A stretch of DNA of 64,000 bases from Streptococcus troglodytae (GTDB taxonomy: Bacteria > Bacillota > Bacilli > Lactobacillales > Streptococcaceae). This document shows, piece after piece, positions 7,803 to 51,977 of this stretch. The translations under genes were made by a program, and so were the position numbers. Under the pieces are notes generated by a model, which saw only the letters and a list, made by a program, of their open reading frames with translations, had not been told where the DNA came from and did no database searches. The stretch spans positions 1,798,001 through 1,862,000 of the forward strand of contig NZ_AP014612.1 of NCBI RefSeq assembly GCF_002355215.1. Reading direction: 5' to 3'. The stretch's first letter is position 1, and each line of letters opens with the position of its first letter.

Positions 7803-7836
7803 AAAAAAAGACAAACCTCAAAAGGAAGTTTGTCTT
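7803..7836 (-). terminator. Terminator after pgi
   Basis: An AAGACAAAC/GTTTGTCTT stem is followed on the minus strand by a run of seven T. A weaker hairpin (AACCAAG/CTTGGTT) lies between it and the pgi stop. A near copy of the terminator follows the ascorbate operon at 51922. Confidence 0.85.
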
Positions 7837-7880
7837 CAGTCTGAAACCAAGGCTAAGGTCTTGGTTTTCTTATTTTATTA

Positions 7881-13687: not shown

Positions 13688-14640
13688 AACATCTCCTTAT
13701 TTTTATTACACTTAAATTTTTAAGCATGATTGTCACTTCTGAAATTTCTCTTCATTTTGTAAACAAAATACTTAAAAAATTCAAAAATAGCAAAATTTTT
13801 CTAATGCTATTAGTCTTTTGTCACTTCTGAAGAATTCTTCCATCTTTATTTTATTCCAAAAATCAAGTTAGAACCTTACACCTTTGTAAGTTCTCAAAAA
13901 AGTTTTTTCTTCAATTGACATAATCTAAAATTATCTAGTAAAACTAGATGATTCAGACTGAAGACAAAATCTTTTATGAGACTTTCCTTGGGTGATACGG
14001 ACGGTAGCGATGAGGCAACTTTCGTTTCCTTATATCTCAACTTAAAATAGCTCTATGACTATTTCAGCCTTTGAGAATTCCATACCTAAACCAAGATACA
14101 AAGGGCGTTAAGCGGATAAAGGCAAAATAGGGAGTACGATGCGGAATCTTTAAGATTCTAGGAGAACTCATCTTTTTGCCACAATCCGCAGCCCATGTTC
14201 AGTTAAACCAAGATACAAAGGGCGTTAAACGGACAAGAGCAAAATAGGAAACTAACCGACGACTCTTGCGTCTAGGATATGTTTTCTTTTTGCCGCCGTC
14301 CGTAGCCCGTGTTCAGTTAAACCAAGATACAAAGGGCGTTAAGCGGATAAAGGCAAAATAGGGAGTACGACGCGGAATCTTTAAGATTCTAGGAGAACTC
14401 ATCTTTTTGCCACAATCCGCAGCCCATGCTTATTTAAGATTTGATTCTAAAGTCTCAAATCTTCCAAATAGCAGAAATATCACTGTTTCTGCCACTTTTA
14501 TCATGGCGCTTAATTAGGGCTCGCTTTGCTCACAAATCAATGCCATTTAAATTGGCATTGCAGAACTTCAAAACATATATAGAAAAAGTAGCTTTGTCTT
14601 CAAGTGATAATAATTTTAATAGACAGGGGCATTTACCTTT
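13688..14640. other. Gene-free stretch between ydcF-like gene and nucleotidyltransferase
   Basis: Apart from the repeat array at 14088-14432, I see AT-rich sequence and a TTCAGACTGAAGACAAAA piece at 13953-13970 that also occurs at the terminators near 7830 and 51945. A small AATGCCA/TGGCATT hairpin lies at 14541-14561. No open frame here has a credible start or family. Confidence 0.5.
14088..14432 (+). repeat. Three tandem ~115-bp hairpin repeats
   Basis: Units start near 14088, 14206 and 14319 with AAACCAAGATACAAAGGGCG and end in AGCCCATG/AGCCCGTG. Inside each unit the arms pair over long distances: GCGGAT/ATCCGC plus GGCAAAA/TTTTGCC in units 1 and 3, and ACGGAC/GTCCGT plus GCAAAA/TTTTGC in unit 2. 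The stem sequence changes on both sides together. No protein is encoded. A second array of the same family lies at 22931-23395. Confidence 0.85.
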
Positions 14641-22400: not shown

Positions 22401-22913
22401 TTACGAATGCAGGAATTTTTCGACTTTGTCTGTCTGCCGATGAAGAAAGCGCAGATTAACCAACTGAAGAGGGAATATAAGGACTGTCAGCATCAATAAA
22501 AGCATCCAGCTAAGTGACTGAGCAAAACAAAATCCCGTGATAGCCATAACCAGTAAAGGGAGAGTTAATGCTGCAGTAATGCTGCCGGGCACCCATGTAC
22601 GATAAGTAATGGCTTGAGAAATATGAGAAAAAAGATGGAAAGTATGTCCCAATGTGATAGCTAATACCAACTCTGGTACTTTAAAAAGAATGCCTGTAAG
22701 CAAAATCAGACTAGCTAAAACAAACTCTTCTAAGACAACTACTGCAATATTTTCTGCTGAAGGGTAATGCTTTCTGCCTGAGATAAATATCTCATTGGCA
22801 AACTTGGGATCGCTCTTGTTCTTAGCAATCCATGGGCAGACTAAAATTATTTCTTCAAATTCGTGTATCATAAAAAGCGTTATAGCGATAAAAGCGAATA
22901 GTGCTGCTGTCAT
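22401..22913 (-). CDS. HXXEE-domain membrane protein
   Basis: 170 aa. MIHEFEEI near the N-terminus is the HXXEE signature that names this family (PF13787), and a second His-rich patch, LGHTFHLFSH, follows in the middle. Four to five hydrophobic segments. Function of the family is unknown. AAGGAG lies before the ATG. It is a single-gene unit ended by the hairpin at 22345; the second repeat array lies immediately upstream. Confidence 0.8.
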   Translation of the reverse strand: MTAALFAFIAITLFMIHEFEEIILVCPWIAKNKSDPKFANEIFISGRKHYPSAENIAVVVLEEFVLASLILLTGILFKVPELVLAITLGHTFHLFSHISQAITYRTWVPGSITAALTLPLLVMAITGFCFAQSLSWMLLLMLTVLIFPLQLVNLRFLHRQTDKVEKFLHS

Positions 22914-22930
22914 TATTTCTCTCCTTTATT

Positions 22931-23395
22931 CAAGATACCAAAGAGCATTAGAAATCCGTATAAAAATAGGAAACGAACGCCGTGTCGCCAAGACACAAGG
23001 ACGTTTATCTTTTTACTAGGATTTTAACTCGTGTTCAATTTACTTAAGATACAAAGAGCGTTACAAAATCCGTATAAAAATAGGAAACGAACGCCGTGTC
23101 GCCAAGACACAAGGACGTTTATCTTTTTTTACTAGGATTTTAGCTCGTGTTCAATTTACTTAAGATACAAAGAGCGTTACAAAATCCGTATAAAAATAGA
23201 AAACGGACGCCGTGTCACCAAGACATAAGGACGTTTATCTTTTTTACTAGGATTTTAGCTCGTGTTCAATTTATTTAAGATACAAAGGCGTAAGCGGCAC
23301 ACAGCAAAATAGGAAAACTGACGAAAATGCTTTAACATGTAGAAAGTCTTTATCTTTTTGCACAGTGTCGTAGCCGTGTTTGATTTATTAAAGAT
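22931..23395 (+). repeat. Four tandem ~115-bp hairpin repeats
   Basis: Units begin near 22931, 23045, 23162 and 23277 with AAGATACAAAGAGCG-like heads and end with CGTGTTCAATTTA-like tails. In units 1-3 the arms are AAATCC/GGATTT, TAAAAA/TTTTTA and AAACG/CGTTT around a TGTC/GACA tip. In unit 4 they are replaced by CAC/GTG and GCAAAA/TTTTGC. The array ends against the stop codon of the AraC gene. Confidence 0.85.
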
Positions 23396-24356
23396 TGGTT
23401 TCCTTATACTGCTTTAACGTCTTGCCGGTCCATTTTTTAAAAGCCCGAAGAAAGCTGGACTTTTCTGAGTAACCGACTAAATAAGCAATCTCATCAACTG
23501 ACATAGATAAGCCGAGATAGGAAAAAGCCATCAATTTTTGCATGTGTAAAACTTCTTCCTTAAAAGTTGTATTCTCAACAGCCAATTTACGCTGCAGAGT
23601 ACGGGCACTGAGGCCTAGTCTGTCAGCTATCGTTACAAGAGAAAATTGTCCGCTGGGGATGGCAGACAGCAACTCTGTCTGGATGGCCTGAGTGAAATTG
23701 CCATCACTATGAAGCTGGGACAACTGCTGATTAAGACTTAACTTCAAATGATACCACATGACATTGTTTTCAGTGATAAAAGGTTTCTCAAGATCTGCTT
23801 TAGATAACACTAAGCGATTATAATCTGACTTTTTCGGTAGAATCCCTGCTTCCTTTTCAAGGAGCTTTCCATAATCATAAGGAGAACTGATTTCGTAAGG
23901 AAGAATGCAAGTCCCTGTTCCCGTCCGTAAGAGACTTAAGAGAAGCAGCTGTTCCTGCAGCAATAACATGCGAGGAAGCGGAAGCTGTGCTGGACAGTAG
24001 GCATAACTTACAGCAACTTTGTCTCCGCTGTCATCAATCTGTACTTTTACTGGACCAATTAAGCTTTTATATTTCGAAAATCGCTGTAAAGCCGTCAAAC
24101 CATCAGGACTTGCTAAAGCAGCAAAAAAGGCCGGTACAAACTTCTTAATGTTTTCAATTCTGCTCAAAGCTAATAGCGCCTCATCTGTAATCAGCTTATC
24201 CAAGGTTGCTATAAAACAATAGTACTCCTGAGCATTATAAGTAAGCTCTTCTTGCCACAGCCTATTAGGCAGCTGTGCTTTTTGTAAAATCAGCCCGATA
24301 TCTATTCCCAATTCTTGTAAGAAAGACTGAAATTGTTTCGTAATCATCAGTTTCAT
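23388..24356 (-). CDS. AraC-family transcriptional regulator
   Basis: 322 aa. The C-terminal 100 residues form the AraC DNA-binding domain (LGLSARTLQRKLA, then VDEIAYLVGYSEKSSFLRAFKKW), and the N-terminal part resembles the arabinose-binding-type domain of OruR/AraC-like activators. The target is unknown. The gene is separate from tkt by about 570 bp and has no obvious operon partner. Its last codons overlap the edge of the hairpin repeat array. Confidence 0.88.
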   Translation of the reverse strand: MKLMITKQFQSFLQELGIDIGLILQKAQLPNRLWQEELTYNAQEYYCFIATLDKLITDEALLALSRIENIKKFVPAFFAALASPDGLTALQRFSKYKSLIGPVKVQIDDSGDKVAVSYAYCPAQLPLPRMLLLQEQLLLLSLLRTGTGTCILPYEISSPYDYGKLLEKEAGILPKKSDYNRLVLSKADLEKPFITENNVMWYHLKLSLNQQLSQLHSDGNFTQAIQTELLSAIPSGQFSLVTIADRLGLSARTLQRKLAVENTTFKEEVLHMQKLMAFSYLGLSMSVDEIAYLVGYSEKSSFLRAFKKWTGKTLKQYKETNL

Positions 24357-37549: not shown

Positions 37550-37812
37550 CTACTATTTTGCCACACGTAAGGAGATAGAAAACAAAGCTATTCTAACCAT
37601 CAAAAGTGTTAATTGTGACACATAGTATGTTGATTACAAGAAAAATTATTGACTACGTTTCGTTTGTTGAAAATTACTTCCCGCAATAACTGACCTAGCC
37701 TGTCAAGAAAATCACTATAAAAATCAATTCCTCAACTGAATCAGCTGAGAGATTTTACTTAAATTCATTATGATTTATACATTTTTTTGAGCCTTTCAAA
37801 GATAAATTTAAT
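37550..37812. other. Gene-free stretch upstream of the second aro remnant
   Basis: A stop-to-stop frame of about 45 codons on the minus strand (around 37610-37745) has no start codon and no family I recognise. Nothing else seen. Confidence 0.4.
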
Positions 37813-38202
37813 TTATTCCCAAAATTTGTCTTCTACTGTTTGATATTGAGCAAAAGTCCAAACTTCTTGTATTTTTCCATTCTCTATTTTAAATAAATCA
37901 ATACCCGGATTATTTAATTTCTCATCTCCTTTTTCTGCTAATGAAATAACACTTGCAGCAACAAAACAATCATTACTTGCAACCCAATTTGTTATAACTC
38001 TAAACGTTCCATTACTCCTCTTCGAAAATTCTCCCAAACGTTCTCCCAGTTCCTGTTTTCCTTTCACTACTCCCGAAAGAGGGCCCTCACCACCCATATG
38101 CCACACGATTGTATCAGAAATTGTTTCAAAAACTGTCTCAAAATCTTTTTTCGCTAGTGCCTCCGTGTAAGTATTAAACACCTCAATTATATTATTTTTC
38201 AT
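37813..38202 (-). CDS. SnoaL/NTF2-like protein
   Basis: 129 aa with the pattern of the NTF2-like SnoaL family: a helical start with FNTYTEALAKKDFETVFE, then DTIVWHMGGEGPLSG and GIDLFKIENGKIQEVWTF. Such small barrels include cyclases, isomerases and proteins of unknown role. AAGGAG lies before the ATG. It is last in a three-gene group with a phosphatase and an acetyltransferase. Function unknown. Confidence 0.75.
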   Translation of the reverse strand: MKNNIIEVFNTYTEALAKKDFETVFETISDTIVWHMGGEGPLSGVVKGKQELGERLGEFSKRSNGTFRVITNWVASNDCFVAASVISLAEKGDEKLNNPGIDLFKIENGKIQEVWTFAQYQTVEDKFWE

Positions 38203-38345: not shown

Positions 38346-39008
38346 TTAGAATAAATTTAACTCATGTTTAATTTCATCCTTATATTTAATACCATATTCA
38401 ATATATTTCTGGTCAGGAAGGGATTTTAAAGATAACTTCCCATCAATGAATGAAAATATTGTAACGCTATTATTAGGTACATATATAACTTCCTCAACAG
38501 ATTGGTCTAAGTAACCAATGATGCTTGCAATCAACATACTATGTGTCACAATTAACACTTTTGAACGATTAGGTTGTTTATTGTATATTTTATATAATTC
38601 AGGAATTAATCGGTCATAAACGTCTTGCCATGTTTCCCCGTGAGGAGTTCCGGTATGTTTTTTAAAATTTAAAGAAAATGGATACTCTTTTAAATATTCA
38701 GAAATGAGATCGCCTTCTCTGTCACCTGTATTAATTTCTCGCAAATTTTTATTAGGTTTAATCTTAAGTTTATTATTTAAAAATTTAGATATTAATCTGG
38801 CTGTTTCTAGACATCGTGTTAGATCACTGCTATAGACTGACTCAAAGTTTATACGACTATCAGATAAACCTTTACCTAAACAACCAGACATAAGTACTCC
38901 GTTTTCAGTAAGTGGAGAATCACACCACCCTTGAACAATCCCTTTAGTATTAAAAATTGTTTCACCGTGTCTTACCATCCAAAACTCAATATTTTTACTA
39001 TTAGTCAT
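38346..39008 (-). CDS. Histidine phosphatase (phosphoglycerate mutase-like)
   Basis: 220 aa. The catalytic RHGET (in MVRHGETIFN) and the second His in VTHSMLIAS mark the superfamily; GDREGD replaces the usual GxxEG. The substrate cannot be deduced. The start at 39008 has GAGG nine bases upstream and lies close to the acetyltransferase stop, suggesting coupling; a start at 39020 is possible. The gene belongs to a cassette that I do not recall at this place in S. mutans. Confidence 0.82.
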   Translation of the reverse strand: MTNSKNIEFWMVRHGETIFNTKGIVQGWCDSPLTENGVLMSGCLGKGLSDSRINFESVYSSDLTRCLETARLISKFLNNKLKIKPNKNLREINTGDREGDLISEYLKEYPFSLNFKKHTGTPHGETWQDVYDRLIPELYKIYNKQPNRSKVLIVTHSMLIASIIGYLDQSVEEVIYVPNNSVTIFSFIDGKLSLKSLPDQKYIEYGIKYKDEIKHELNLF

Positions 39009-47958: not shown

Positions 47959-48009
47959 CTTAAATAGAGTGAGTTGATCATCTCAACTCTTTTAAATATT
48001 TTAACATTT

Positions 48010-48186
48010 TTAATGTTTAATCCTTTTTAATAGTTTTGCGCCATCAGTCACAATGAGAAAAAGTCCTTCTAAGGCCATTAACCCAACAAGAATGTACTTA
48101 AGGGGTCTTATCGGTGTGTATACAGCCATTAACCCCATTATTACAAAAATCGGCAGCAAACTATTCTGAAATAGACGCTTAATCAT
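48010..48186 (-). CDS. Small membrane protein, putative bacteriocin immunity
   Basis: 58 aa with two hydrophobic helices (about 9-24 and 31-48) and a basic end (KLLKRIKH). Its ATG overlaps the stop of the 47-aa bacteriocin-like gene by four bases, the normal place for an immunity gene. No family I recognise. A damaged second copy lies at 48556-48728. Confidence 0.6.
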   Translation of the reverse strand: MIKRLFQNSLLPIFVIMGLMAVYTPIRPLKYILVGLMALEGLFLIVTDGAKLLKRIKH

Positions 48187-48326
48187 AGGCTATAACCAGC
48201 TGCAAAACCAACAAATCCAAGACAGATACCAAGACCTAGTCCTTCTCCTTCGATTACAGCAAGGTAATTTTCTCCTGCTGTTTCAAAATGATCAAATGCC
48301 ACTGAATCCAAAATTAATGTATTCAT
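48183..48326 (-). CDS. Bacteriocin-like peptide with Gly-x-Gly leader
   Basis: 47 aa: MNTLILDSVAFDHFE..., a leader-like front ending IEGEG near residue 29, then a Gly-rich hydrophobic tail (LGLGICLGFVGFAAGYSL). The front matches that of the peptide at 49760. The classic GG is replaced by GEG, which may alter processing by NlmT. GGAGAA precedes the ATG, and a promoter shared with two other small genes lies upstream. Confidence 0.65.
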   Translation of the reverse strand: MNTLILDSVAFDHFETAGENYLAVIEGEGLGLGICLGFVGFAAGYSL

Positions 48327-48361
48327 AAACTTCTCCTTCTCTAATTCTCCAAGTTATCATC

Positions 48362-48410
48362 ATTTTAACATTTTAAAACAGCATATACAATAATATTCCA
48401 GAACTTTAAT
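48362..48410 (-). promoter_or_regulatory. Shared small-peptide promoter, copy 1
   Basis: -35 TTGTAT (48385-48390), 17-bp spacer, -10 TAAAAT (48362-48367). Just upstream is the box ATTAAAGTTCTGGAATATTA, nearly identical to the one at 51650-51670. Confidence 0.65.
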
Positions 48411-48555
48411 ACAGATGATAATAAAAAGAAAGAATCTTACAACTTTTCTGATAGCTGCTATTGTTAGCATTCCAAAATGATCTGACCCAAGCTAGATTGA
48501 GGTACTCAAATAAAGTGAGTCGATCATCTCAACTCTTTTAAAGATTTCAACATTT

Positions 48556-48728
48556 CTAATGCCTAATCCTTTTTAATAGTTTTGCGCCATCAATCACAAT
48601 GAGAGAAAGTCCTTCTAAGGCCATTAAACCAACAAGAATGTACTTAAGGGATCTTATCGGTGTGTAGCTAGTAATCCCATTATTACAAAAACCGTCAGCA
48701 AGCTATTTTGAAATAGACGTTTACTCAT
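48556..48728 (-). pseudogene. Damaged copy of the 58-aa immunity-like gene
   Basis: Starts MSKRLFQNSLLTVFVIMGLL like its intact relative. A small deletion then shifts the frame and stops it; the old frame resumes as YILVGLMALEGLSLIV and ends RIRH. No bacteriocin gene remains upstream of it. Confidence 0.7.
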
Positions 48729-48752
48729 AGACTATAATCAGCTCCTATAGTT

Positions 48753-51921: not shown

Positions 51922-51953
51922 AAAAAAGACTAAACCTCGAAAGGTTTGTCTTC
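51922..51953 (-). terminator. Terminator of the ascorbate operon
   Basis: AAGACaAACCT / AGGTTTaGTCTT stem with T6 on the minus strand; a near copy of the pgi terminator at 7803, including the flanking TTGTCTTCARTCTGAAAC. Confidence 0.8.
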
Positions 51954-51977
51954 AATCTGAAACAATCATTCCTCTTT

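Follow-up and report, generated by a model that had tools for sequence, protein, structure and literature searches.

The tandem hairpin repeats that lie between genes around position 14 kb of the window (the whole 64,000-nucleotide stretch of Streptococcus troglodytae DNA analysed here) raise the question whether their fold or their sequence is kept, and what such a fold would do. The earlier note had described three units with a common head and tail (array 1), a middle unit in which the stem GCGGAT/ATCCGC of the neighbours had become ACGGAC/GTCCGT, and seven units in the window altogether. All three observations were recovered. A covariance model (R1) set the limits of array 1 at 14090-14435, with the minus strand as sense strand; both arms of the middle stem were changed, and four further units were located in array 2 (22929-23385), giving three plus four (Table 1). 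The head motif, with up to 3 mismatches, occurred 5 times against 0.44 expected, and 5 occurrences were reached in 0 of 100 shuffles. Array 1 units folded better than their dinucleotide shuffles on both strands, with z values of -2.9 to -5.5 (-4.1 on either strand for the unit at 14090), and 0 or 1 of 200 shuffles folded as well. In array 2, unit 1 begins directly past the stop codon of an AraC-type regulator (ORF 23388-24356) and past unit 4 come AATAAAGGAG and then the start codon of a 170-aa ORF (22401-22913). A CRISPR reading was rejected by inspection, as the units are structured, their interiors have diverged and the spacer pattern is absent. To our knowledge the sequences of the pneumococcal repeats BOX, RUP and SPRITE are unlike the unit.

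Table 1. Units and predicted composite element in the window, and diverged relatives elsewhere. Positions refer to the window unless another contig is named.
Feature	Position	Strand	Basis
Composite element	13952..14609 (about)	-	alignment of nine composite copies
Composite right module	about 13952-14089	-	
Array 1 unit, last in sense direction	14090..14204	-	R1, 117.2 bits, E 1.1e-23
Array 1 middle unit, ACGGAC/GTCCGT-stem subfamily	14207..14318	-	R1, 111.8 bits, E 2.1e-22
Array 1 unit, first in sense direction	14321..14435	-	R1, 111.0 bits, E 3.1e-22
Composite left module	about 14436-14609	-	
Array 2 unit 4 (sense order)	22929..23040	-	R1, 81.5 bits
Array 2 unit 3	23043..23156	-	R1, 96.0 bits
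Array 2 unit 2	23159..23271	-	R1, 101.0 bits
Array 2 unit 1	23274..23385	-	R1, 75.7 bits
Diverged tandem arrays, G033 contig 1	3-9 kb, 37-56 kb, 116 kb (L305, L318, L324)		

Read in the sense direction, the unit of about 110 nt runs GAACAC-GGGCU ... AAAAAGAUAA ... tip hairpin ... UUCCUAUUUU ... ACGCCC-UUUGUAUCUU. A basal stem GGGC/GCCC carries a long arm, which is made up of a conserved internal loop (AAAAAGAUAA...UUCCUAUUUU) and a variable tip. Covariation was scored in 33 distinct units chosen from those found in the S. troglodytae genome. Changes on both sides were present in 16 of the 22 consensus pairs, and 92.7% of the cells were pairing compared to 76.7% after shuffling. The number of cells changed on both sides was 121 (34.5 in shuffles), a value that 0 of 500 shuffles reached, and control slides by 1-3 columns gave 9-34. 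Of the five measures, four were above every one of the 500 shuffles; only the pair-type count was equalled, by 20 of them. In one unit (L010) the basal stem was inverted from GGGC/GCCC to ACCC/GGGT. Compensatory changes thus exceeded the controls in these units, and did so again in 46 units from dnaJ loci, as expected of a structured RNA family. The proposal of the earlier note that the fold is kept rather than the sequence was thereby strengthened, since compensation above shuffles was also present among copies at one orthologous site, that of dnaJ. The placement of the units relative to genes and SD sites suggests that they act as RNA, on the strand opposite to that printed in the earlier note.

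The search of streptococcal genomes with a covariance model that had been proposed for this locus gave family matches across the genus. In the 2.1-Mb S. troglodytae genome 66 units in 41 arrays were found, and at least one match was present in 33 of 35 other genomes of the genus, with up to 63 per genome; the filters of this 59-genome search were stricter and returned 62 own-genome matches compared to the 66 of the single-genome search. A pattern scan of named genomes gave at least 80 loci, 73 of those listed being titled Streptococcus, and the species among the matches listed include S. suis, S. parasanguinis, S. gordonii, S. gallolyticus, S. ratti and S. oralis. Weaker matches (best E about 1e-8) numbered 11-33 in each of three genomes from one other family of the order, and by eye they have the same internal loop. 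Two further genomes gave single weaker matches. Contig 1 of one genome of that other family (G033) carries tandem arrays of diverged relatives with a spacing of about 121 nt and the same internal loop.

At the gathering threshold of Rfam 15 the units were unmatched, and the only match in the window was an SRP RNA elsewhere. With E up to 1, the unit family was again without a match at 12 loci; one match to a microRNA family (E 0.29), which shares a few bases with a unit, is probably due to chance. A sub-threshold match to SSRC8_2 'Streptococcus sRNA 8' (L208 915-980, 24.7 vs 72 bits, E 0.0063) precedes the dnaK unit by about 60 nt; other sub-threshold matches were to the S10-Clostridia ribosomal protein leader (L098 6384-6484 and L145 1205-1305, 33.8 vs 35.1 bits). 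A literature search in open-licence papers found no description of an SD-AUG hairpin family in Streptococcus. The statement of the earlier note that no description of the family is known agrees with Rfam 15 but is not secure, because candidates exist: the units may be the S. suis BOX modules of Croucher 2011 or the 'ScRE' motif of Weinberg 2010.

The 41 own-genome arrays were sorted by reading what follows each of them, dnaJ being taken from a separate dnaJ comparison. Four settings were recognised: (A) between an SD and a start codon (14 arrays), (B) upstream of an SD (8, array 2 included), (C) cores of composite elements (9) and (D) antisense past 3' ends (7, namely at five rRNA operons, after one tRNA and past rpsH); 3 arrays were others. 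For other species 102 of the 135 matches listed were viewed. The count took 19 of them as inner tandem units, wrongly in the case of at least one dnaJ locus (L138). The 83 others comprised 13 in setting A, 20 in setting B, 21 antisense beside a stop codon and 29 other. Setting A genes among them were dnaJ, prfA, proS, hisS, carB and a methyltransferase. The names hisS, proS, rplC, rpsH, rpsN, rplF, rpmF, carB, dnaK, dnaJ and dnaA are presumptive and based on terminal sequences.

Five matches of identical score (own genome 22350, 193849, 371073, 391220 and 1895942) had been read as an IS, a reading that was dropped, as all five lie beside the 23S 3' end, in antisense orientation within the 23S-5S rRNA spacer; the spacer was read at one of them (L196 2351-2460) and the other four have the same flanks. 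One antisense unit follows a tRNA (L201). At three loci (L190, L138, L228) antisense units begin at or beside the dnaK stop codon, and the UAAGAU end of the L228 unit includes the stop UAA. If base 1 (dnaA) is taken as origin and the half circle as terminus, the sense strand runs along replication in 57 of the 66 own-genome units (33 on the left, plus strand; 24 on the right, minus strand). The nine running against it comprise the spacer copies at rRNA (five) and tRNA (one), one unit past rpsH and two before counter-oriented genes.

Array 1 itself has no long-ORF start codon within 400 nt downstream, and for this reason it most likely serves no gene. As judged from sequence comparison, it is the tandem core, or cargo, of a composite element whose insertion duplicates the target. 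In nine own-genome arrays common left and right modules surround 1-6 units; the left module is about 175-180 nt long, with two small hairpins that are maybe separate modules, and the right one about 97-140 nt. TCAGACTGAAGACAAA was found at most left ends, and the right ends are only partly complementary to it, the window copy excepted, where TCAGACTGAAGACAAA at 13953 has an imperfect counterpart that ends at 14609. Seven copies of 388-968 bp could be delimited by terminal patterns, and target repeats were scored in these seven; the window copy is one of the two not so delimited. In 5 of the 7, exact target repeats of 6-17 bp abut both ends (CTCTAAGAGC, TATAAA, GGGCTGTTTAGCCC, CATGCAT and GGGATCATTTTGATCCT). 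The sixth has an abutting imperfect repeat of about 22 nt with few mismatches, the longest exact part being ATCAAGAGTAA, and the seventh only a non-abutting 6-mer. Four of the duplicated targets resemble terminator hairpins. Duplication of the target at both ends is the behaviour of a MITE or other non-autonomous mobile element, which applies here to the composite form. The earlier note had anticipated neither this composite nor the split start sites described below.

Other repeats were noted in the window. Solo copies of the composite-terminal sequence TTTGTCTTCAGTCTGA are present at 7829-7844 and, with a mismatch, at 51945-51960, neither with units; the former falls inside a repeat arm at 7808-7845. 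A 55-nt inverted repeat (37600-37654 / 38510-38564, 87% complementary, 855 nt apart) surrounds ORF 37813-38202, and 47959-48743 contains two long direct repeats that are imperfect (162 nt, 93%; 78 nt, 86%), with a distance of about 545 nt.

In setting A the array ends at most 3 nt from an AUG that has no strong SD near it, and a strong SD is located 5' of the unit. The 14 genes are purH, purD, dnaK, dnaJ, serS, uvrA, accC, thrS, rmlB, hisA, deoD, parC, galE and carB. Pfam fits 10 of these 14 names when the N-terminal 200 aa are used (for rmlB and galE no further than the epimerase family). NCBIfam names 8 of 14 from fragments, mostly under full-length cut-offs, and dnaK, dnaJ and carB are presumptive names given from the N-termini. 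Near the AUG, anti-SD pairing was better than -5.0 kcal/mol at none of the 14 loci; just upstream of the unit it reached -9.6 to -13.4 kcal/mol at 13 of 14. The dnaJ gene of S. troglodytae has a best SD-like site of -5.7 within 45 nt, and GGAAAGGA lies 167 nt ahead of its AUG. GAAAGGA was found 5' of the unit at 13/14 setting A loci compared to 2/47 window ORF starts (Fisher p 2e-10), 29 of the latter 47 having some SD at or below -6. The own 16S 3' end, ...CCTCCTTTCT, is complementary to AGAAAGGA. The layout is that of a split translation-initiation region, in which an SD is parted from its AUG by structure and no SD lies near the AUG.

The predicted SD-AUG graph distance was calculated for 13 setting A loci, uvrA being left out. 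It was below the shuffle mean at 13/13 (mean 16.5 vs 23.5), a comparison to be read in the light of the fact that any RNA folds compactly. It beat all 30 shuffles at 1/13 loci, and at parC the values were nearly equal (21.5 vs 22.9). Some folds pair the SD or the AUG in part, the value for an unpaired AUG being 0.08 at thrS and 0.19 at deoD.

The same layout was followed at dnaJ, which was present in all 98 genomes drawn; 78 of the 91 loci were searched, 13 near-duplicates being left out. A unit abuts the dnaJ AUG in 66 of these 78. Within the 22 nt before the AUG, pairing to the 16S tail reached -7 kcal/mol in 0/66 (best -6.2); in 61/66 a site that does reach it was found in the 60 nt 5' of the unit, mostly AGAAAGGA. 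Among the five exceptions, L221 reads N upstream and four (L208, L272, L283, L292) have AAAGGA-type sites further upstream. Spacing was measured in 70 setting A loci, own-genome loci included, after 8 of 78 without a recognised SD or end had been dropped. AGAAAGGA was upstream in 64/70, the distance from SD end to GAAC was exactly 3 nt in 29/70, and the AUG came 4-7 nt past GUAUC in the 43/70 correctly measured, the other 27 being mis-measured on the 3' side. Longer SD-GAAC gaps contain a hairpin, P0; of 43 distinct segments, 36 outdid 95% of their shuffles. The 3' arm of P0 is the same GAAC with which the unit starts, and P0 and the outer stem exclude each other.

In 46 of the 66 dnaJ units, changes on both sides were present in 20/24 pairs (reached by 9/500 shuffles) and in 280 cells compared to 89.5 in shuffles (0/500), and the pair-type count was not above shuffles (339/500 reach it). 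This covariation is no proof of vertical selection, because orthologous copies may be replaced by other subfamilies. Some of the 12 dnaJ loci without a model match have decayed or replaced leaders, and 3/12 have a site at or below -6. At two dnaJ loci (L228, L246) the leader unit is replaced by apparent coding sequence. An ORF of nearly 300 codons in L228 ends just before the leftover unit 3' end GGTATCTTGT; read as a possible autonomous partner, this dnaK-dnaJ ORF gave no lead.

The leaders of dnaK and parC were each viewed in 30 best-matching loci. At dnaK the element was present in 3/30, and an SD near the AUG was found in 27/27 loci without the element and in 0/3 with it. Two of the three (L336, L338) have the unit ends with another interior and lie outside the model test. 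An older GAGGA seems left upstream. At parC the element was present in 17 of the 29 loci placed, as judged by a text pattern; a mini form (L401) has kept P0, the stem and the ends, and the long arm is absent. Where the element is absent from parC, an SD of -6 or stronger was present in only 3/12 loci. As copies without the element are mostly without a strong SD at parC and dnaJ (3/12 each), the SD may matter less than assumed. At purH, where several of the 30 loci were wrongly placed by the script, the element was seen by eye solely in S. troglodytae and one near relative (L363, L364).

How a gene might be translated across such an insert is suggested by the predicted folds, according to which the element probably brings SD and AUG together. 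The 30S subunit would pair with AGAAAGGA through the 16S rRNA end (UCCUUUCU), and folding by the outer stem, or by the 5' hairpin P0 together with the main hairpin, would loop out 112-167 nt, and more at uvrA with its three units. The AUG just 3' of GUAUCUU would then take the place of a normally spaced start codon, and with the outer stem closed the SD-AUG distance would be about that of an ordinary gene. Because translation of the gene would be kept, the insert would be tolerated even at housekeeping genes and could spread. AGAAAGGA may be part of the element or its preferred target; the strong enrichment of GAAAGGA and the GAGGA apparently kept upstream at dnaK favour the former.

The units could also be purely selfish insertions of BOX or MITE type. 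A gene whose AUG is abutted by a unit would then start without an SD (AUG-led, leaderless, or with a promoter within or past the element), and the upstream AGAAAGGA would be a remnant or reflect a preference in insertion. The mobility of the composite would fit this, as would the often weak SDs at parC and dnaJ without the element and, according to an excerpt of PMC6212727, the working leaderless translation of S. pneumoniae, in which 9% of operons are leaderless. We nevertheless regard this reading as unlikely, given that a strong SD-like site is kept 5' of the element in 61/66 dnaJ loci, mostly as AGAAAGGA, that this SD sits at 3 nt or has P0 after it, that the near SD is absent at dnaK exactly where the element is present, and that the stems go on compensating at the dnaJ site. 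Somewhat improbable, in our judgement, is a cis-regulatory switch or protein-binding site, at which a ligand, a protein or temperature would choose between P0 and the outer stem and tune initiation. P0 and the outer stem indeed share GAACAC and are mutually exclusive, the internal loop is conserved and seen by eye also in another family of the order, and the table of Weinberg 2010, in the part available (PMC2864571), apparently marks ScRE with 'y' in its cis-regulatory column, if this is the same motif. Against a switch stand the mixed set of genes (tRNA ligases, purine synthesis, chaperones, DNA repair, sugar epimerase), the variable presence at one gene between species (dnaK 3/30, parC 17/29) and the frequency of the P0-less form with its 3-nt gap (29/70).

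Removal of the element from the mRNA in the manner of an intron, with joining of the ends, would restore normal SD-AUG spacing too, and excision of GAAC...GUAUC leaves 7-10 nt in the 3-nt class. However, tandem copies and copies far from start codons persist and the looped-out fold accounts for the same spacing, so that we hold removal to be highly improbable. Still harder to credit is a coupled leader peptide, in which the upstream SD would drive a short ORF across the element to the gene start: a UAA often stands 2-3 nt ahead of the AUG (CUUAAUUAUG), but an ORF that starts 2-15 nt past the SD and ends near the AUG was found in just 3/70 loci.

Taken as a whole, it appears fairly probable from the sequences compared that the units are a genus-wide structured-RNA family, that setting A is a split translation-initiation region and that array 1 is composite cargo. 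More tentatively, and with doubt prevailing, mobile elements may be made harmless by being transparent to translation initiation: they would occupy the SD-AUG spacer, fold away and so colonise housekeeping start sites genus-wide, some perhaps bringing their own AGAAAGGA. Introns and inteins, to which such elements can be likened, do so for splicing. DnaJ in most streptococci and up to 14 proteins of S. troglodytae would then be translated through such inserts. If the split-initiation reading is right, dnaJ in most of the species viewed (66/78 loci), and dnaK, parC, serS, thrS and others in some, would be translated from an SD at least 112 nt upstream that is bridged by the repeated fold. Predictors of start sites and SD statistics would then wrongly count such genes as SD-less. 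To the rule that SD and AUG lie close in sequence, many cellular genes would form an exception based on folding. It would also be seen how a mobile element can settle in the start sites of housekeeping genes.

Small interspersed hairpin repeats are known from streptococci as BOX, RUP and SPRITE of the pneumococcus (PMC3049150). Closest to the composite are the BOX-type elements of S. suis (boxA-F, RepSU1), in which, according to the excerpted description of Croucher 2011 (PMC3049150), end modules of 115 and 133 nt, or of about 50 nt, enclose internal boxB modules. Both are modular, interspersed elements of Streptococcus in which the number of inner modules between the end modules varies. They are compared by description, and in that excerpt the S. 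suis elements carry no link to start codons and BOX-type elements outside the pneumococcus and S. mitis are reported mainly from S. suis, other species being without a thorough de novo search, whereas the units described here occur across the genus. 'ScRE' and 'sanguinis-hairpin', two Streptococcus motifs that the excerpted table of Weinberg 2010 gives without an Rfam number (PMC2864571), are, from their table rows, candidates for the same family.

For the split start sites, the single E. coli gene thrS offers a parallel by description rather than by sequence or exact layout; there the ribosome accommodates a long hairpin within a split ribosome-binding site, as stated in an excerpt of PMC3936740. 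The same layout, an RNA structure in an over-long SD-AUG spacing, is found in genes 38 and 25 of phage T4, where according to the part of a review available (PMC3014915) the structure cuts the spacing from 22 to 5 nt and from 27 to 11 nt, and its destabilisation lowers initiation. The effect in T4 is experimental, whereas the streptococcal split sites are proposed from sequence and predicted folds. In T4 22-27 nt are bridged in single phage genes; in streptococci one repeated family would bridge 112-167 nt in many cellular genes, genus-wide.
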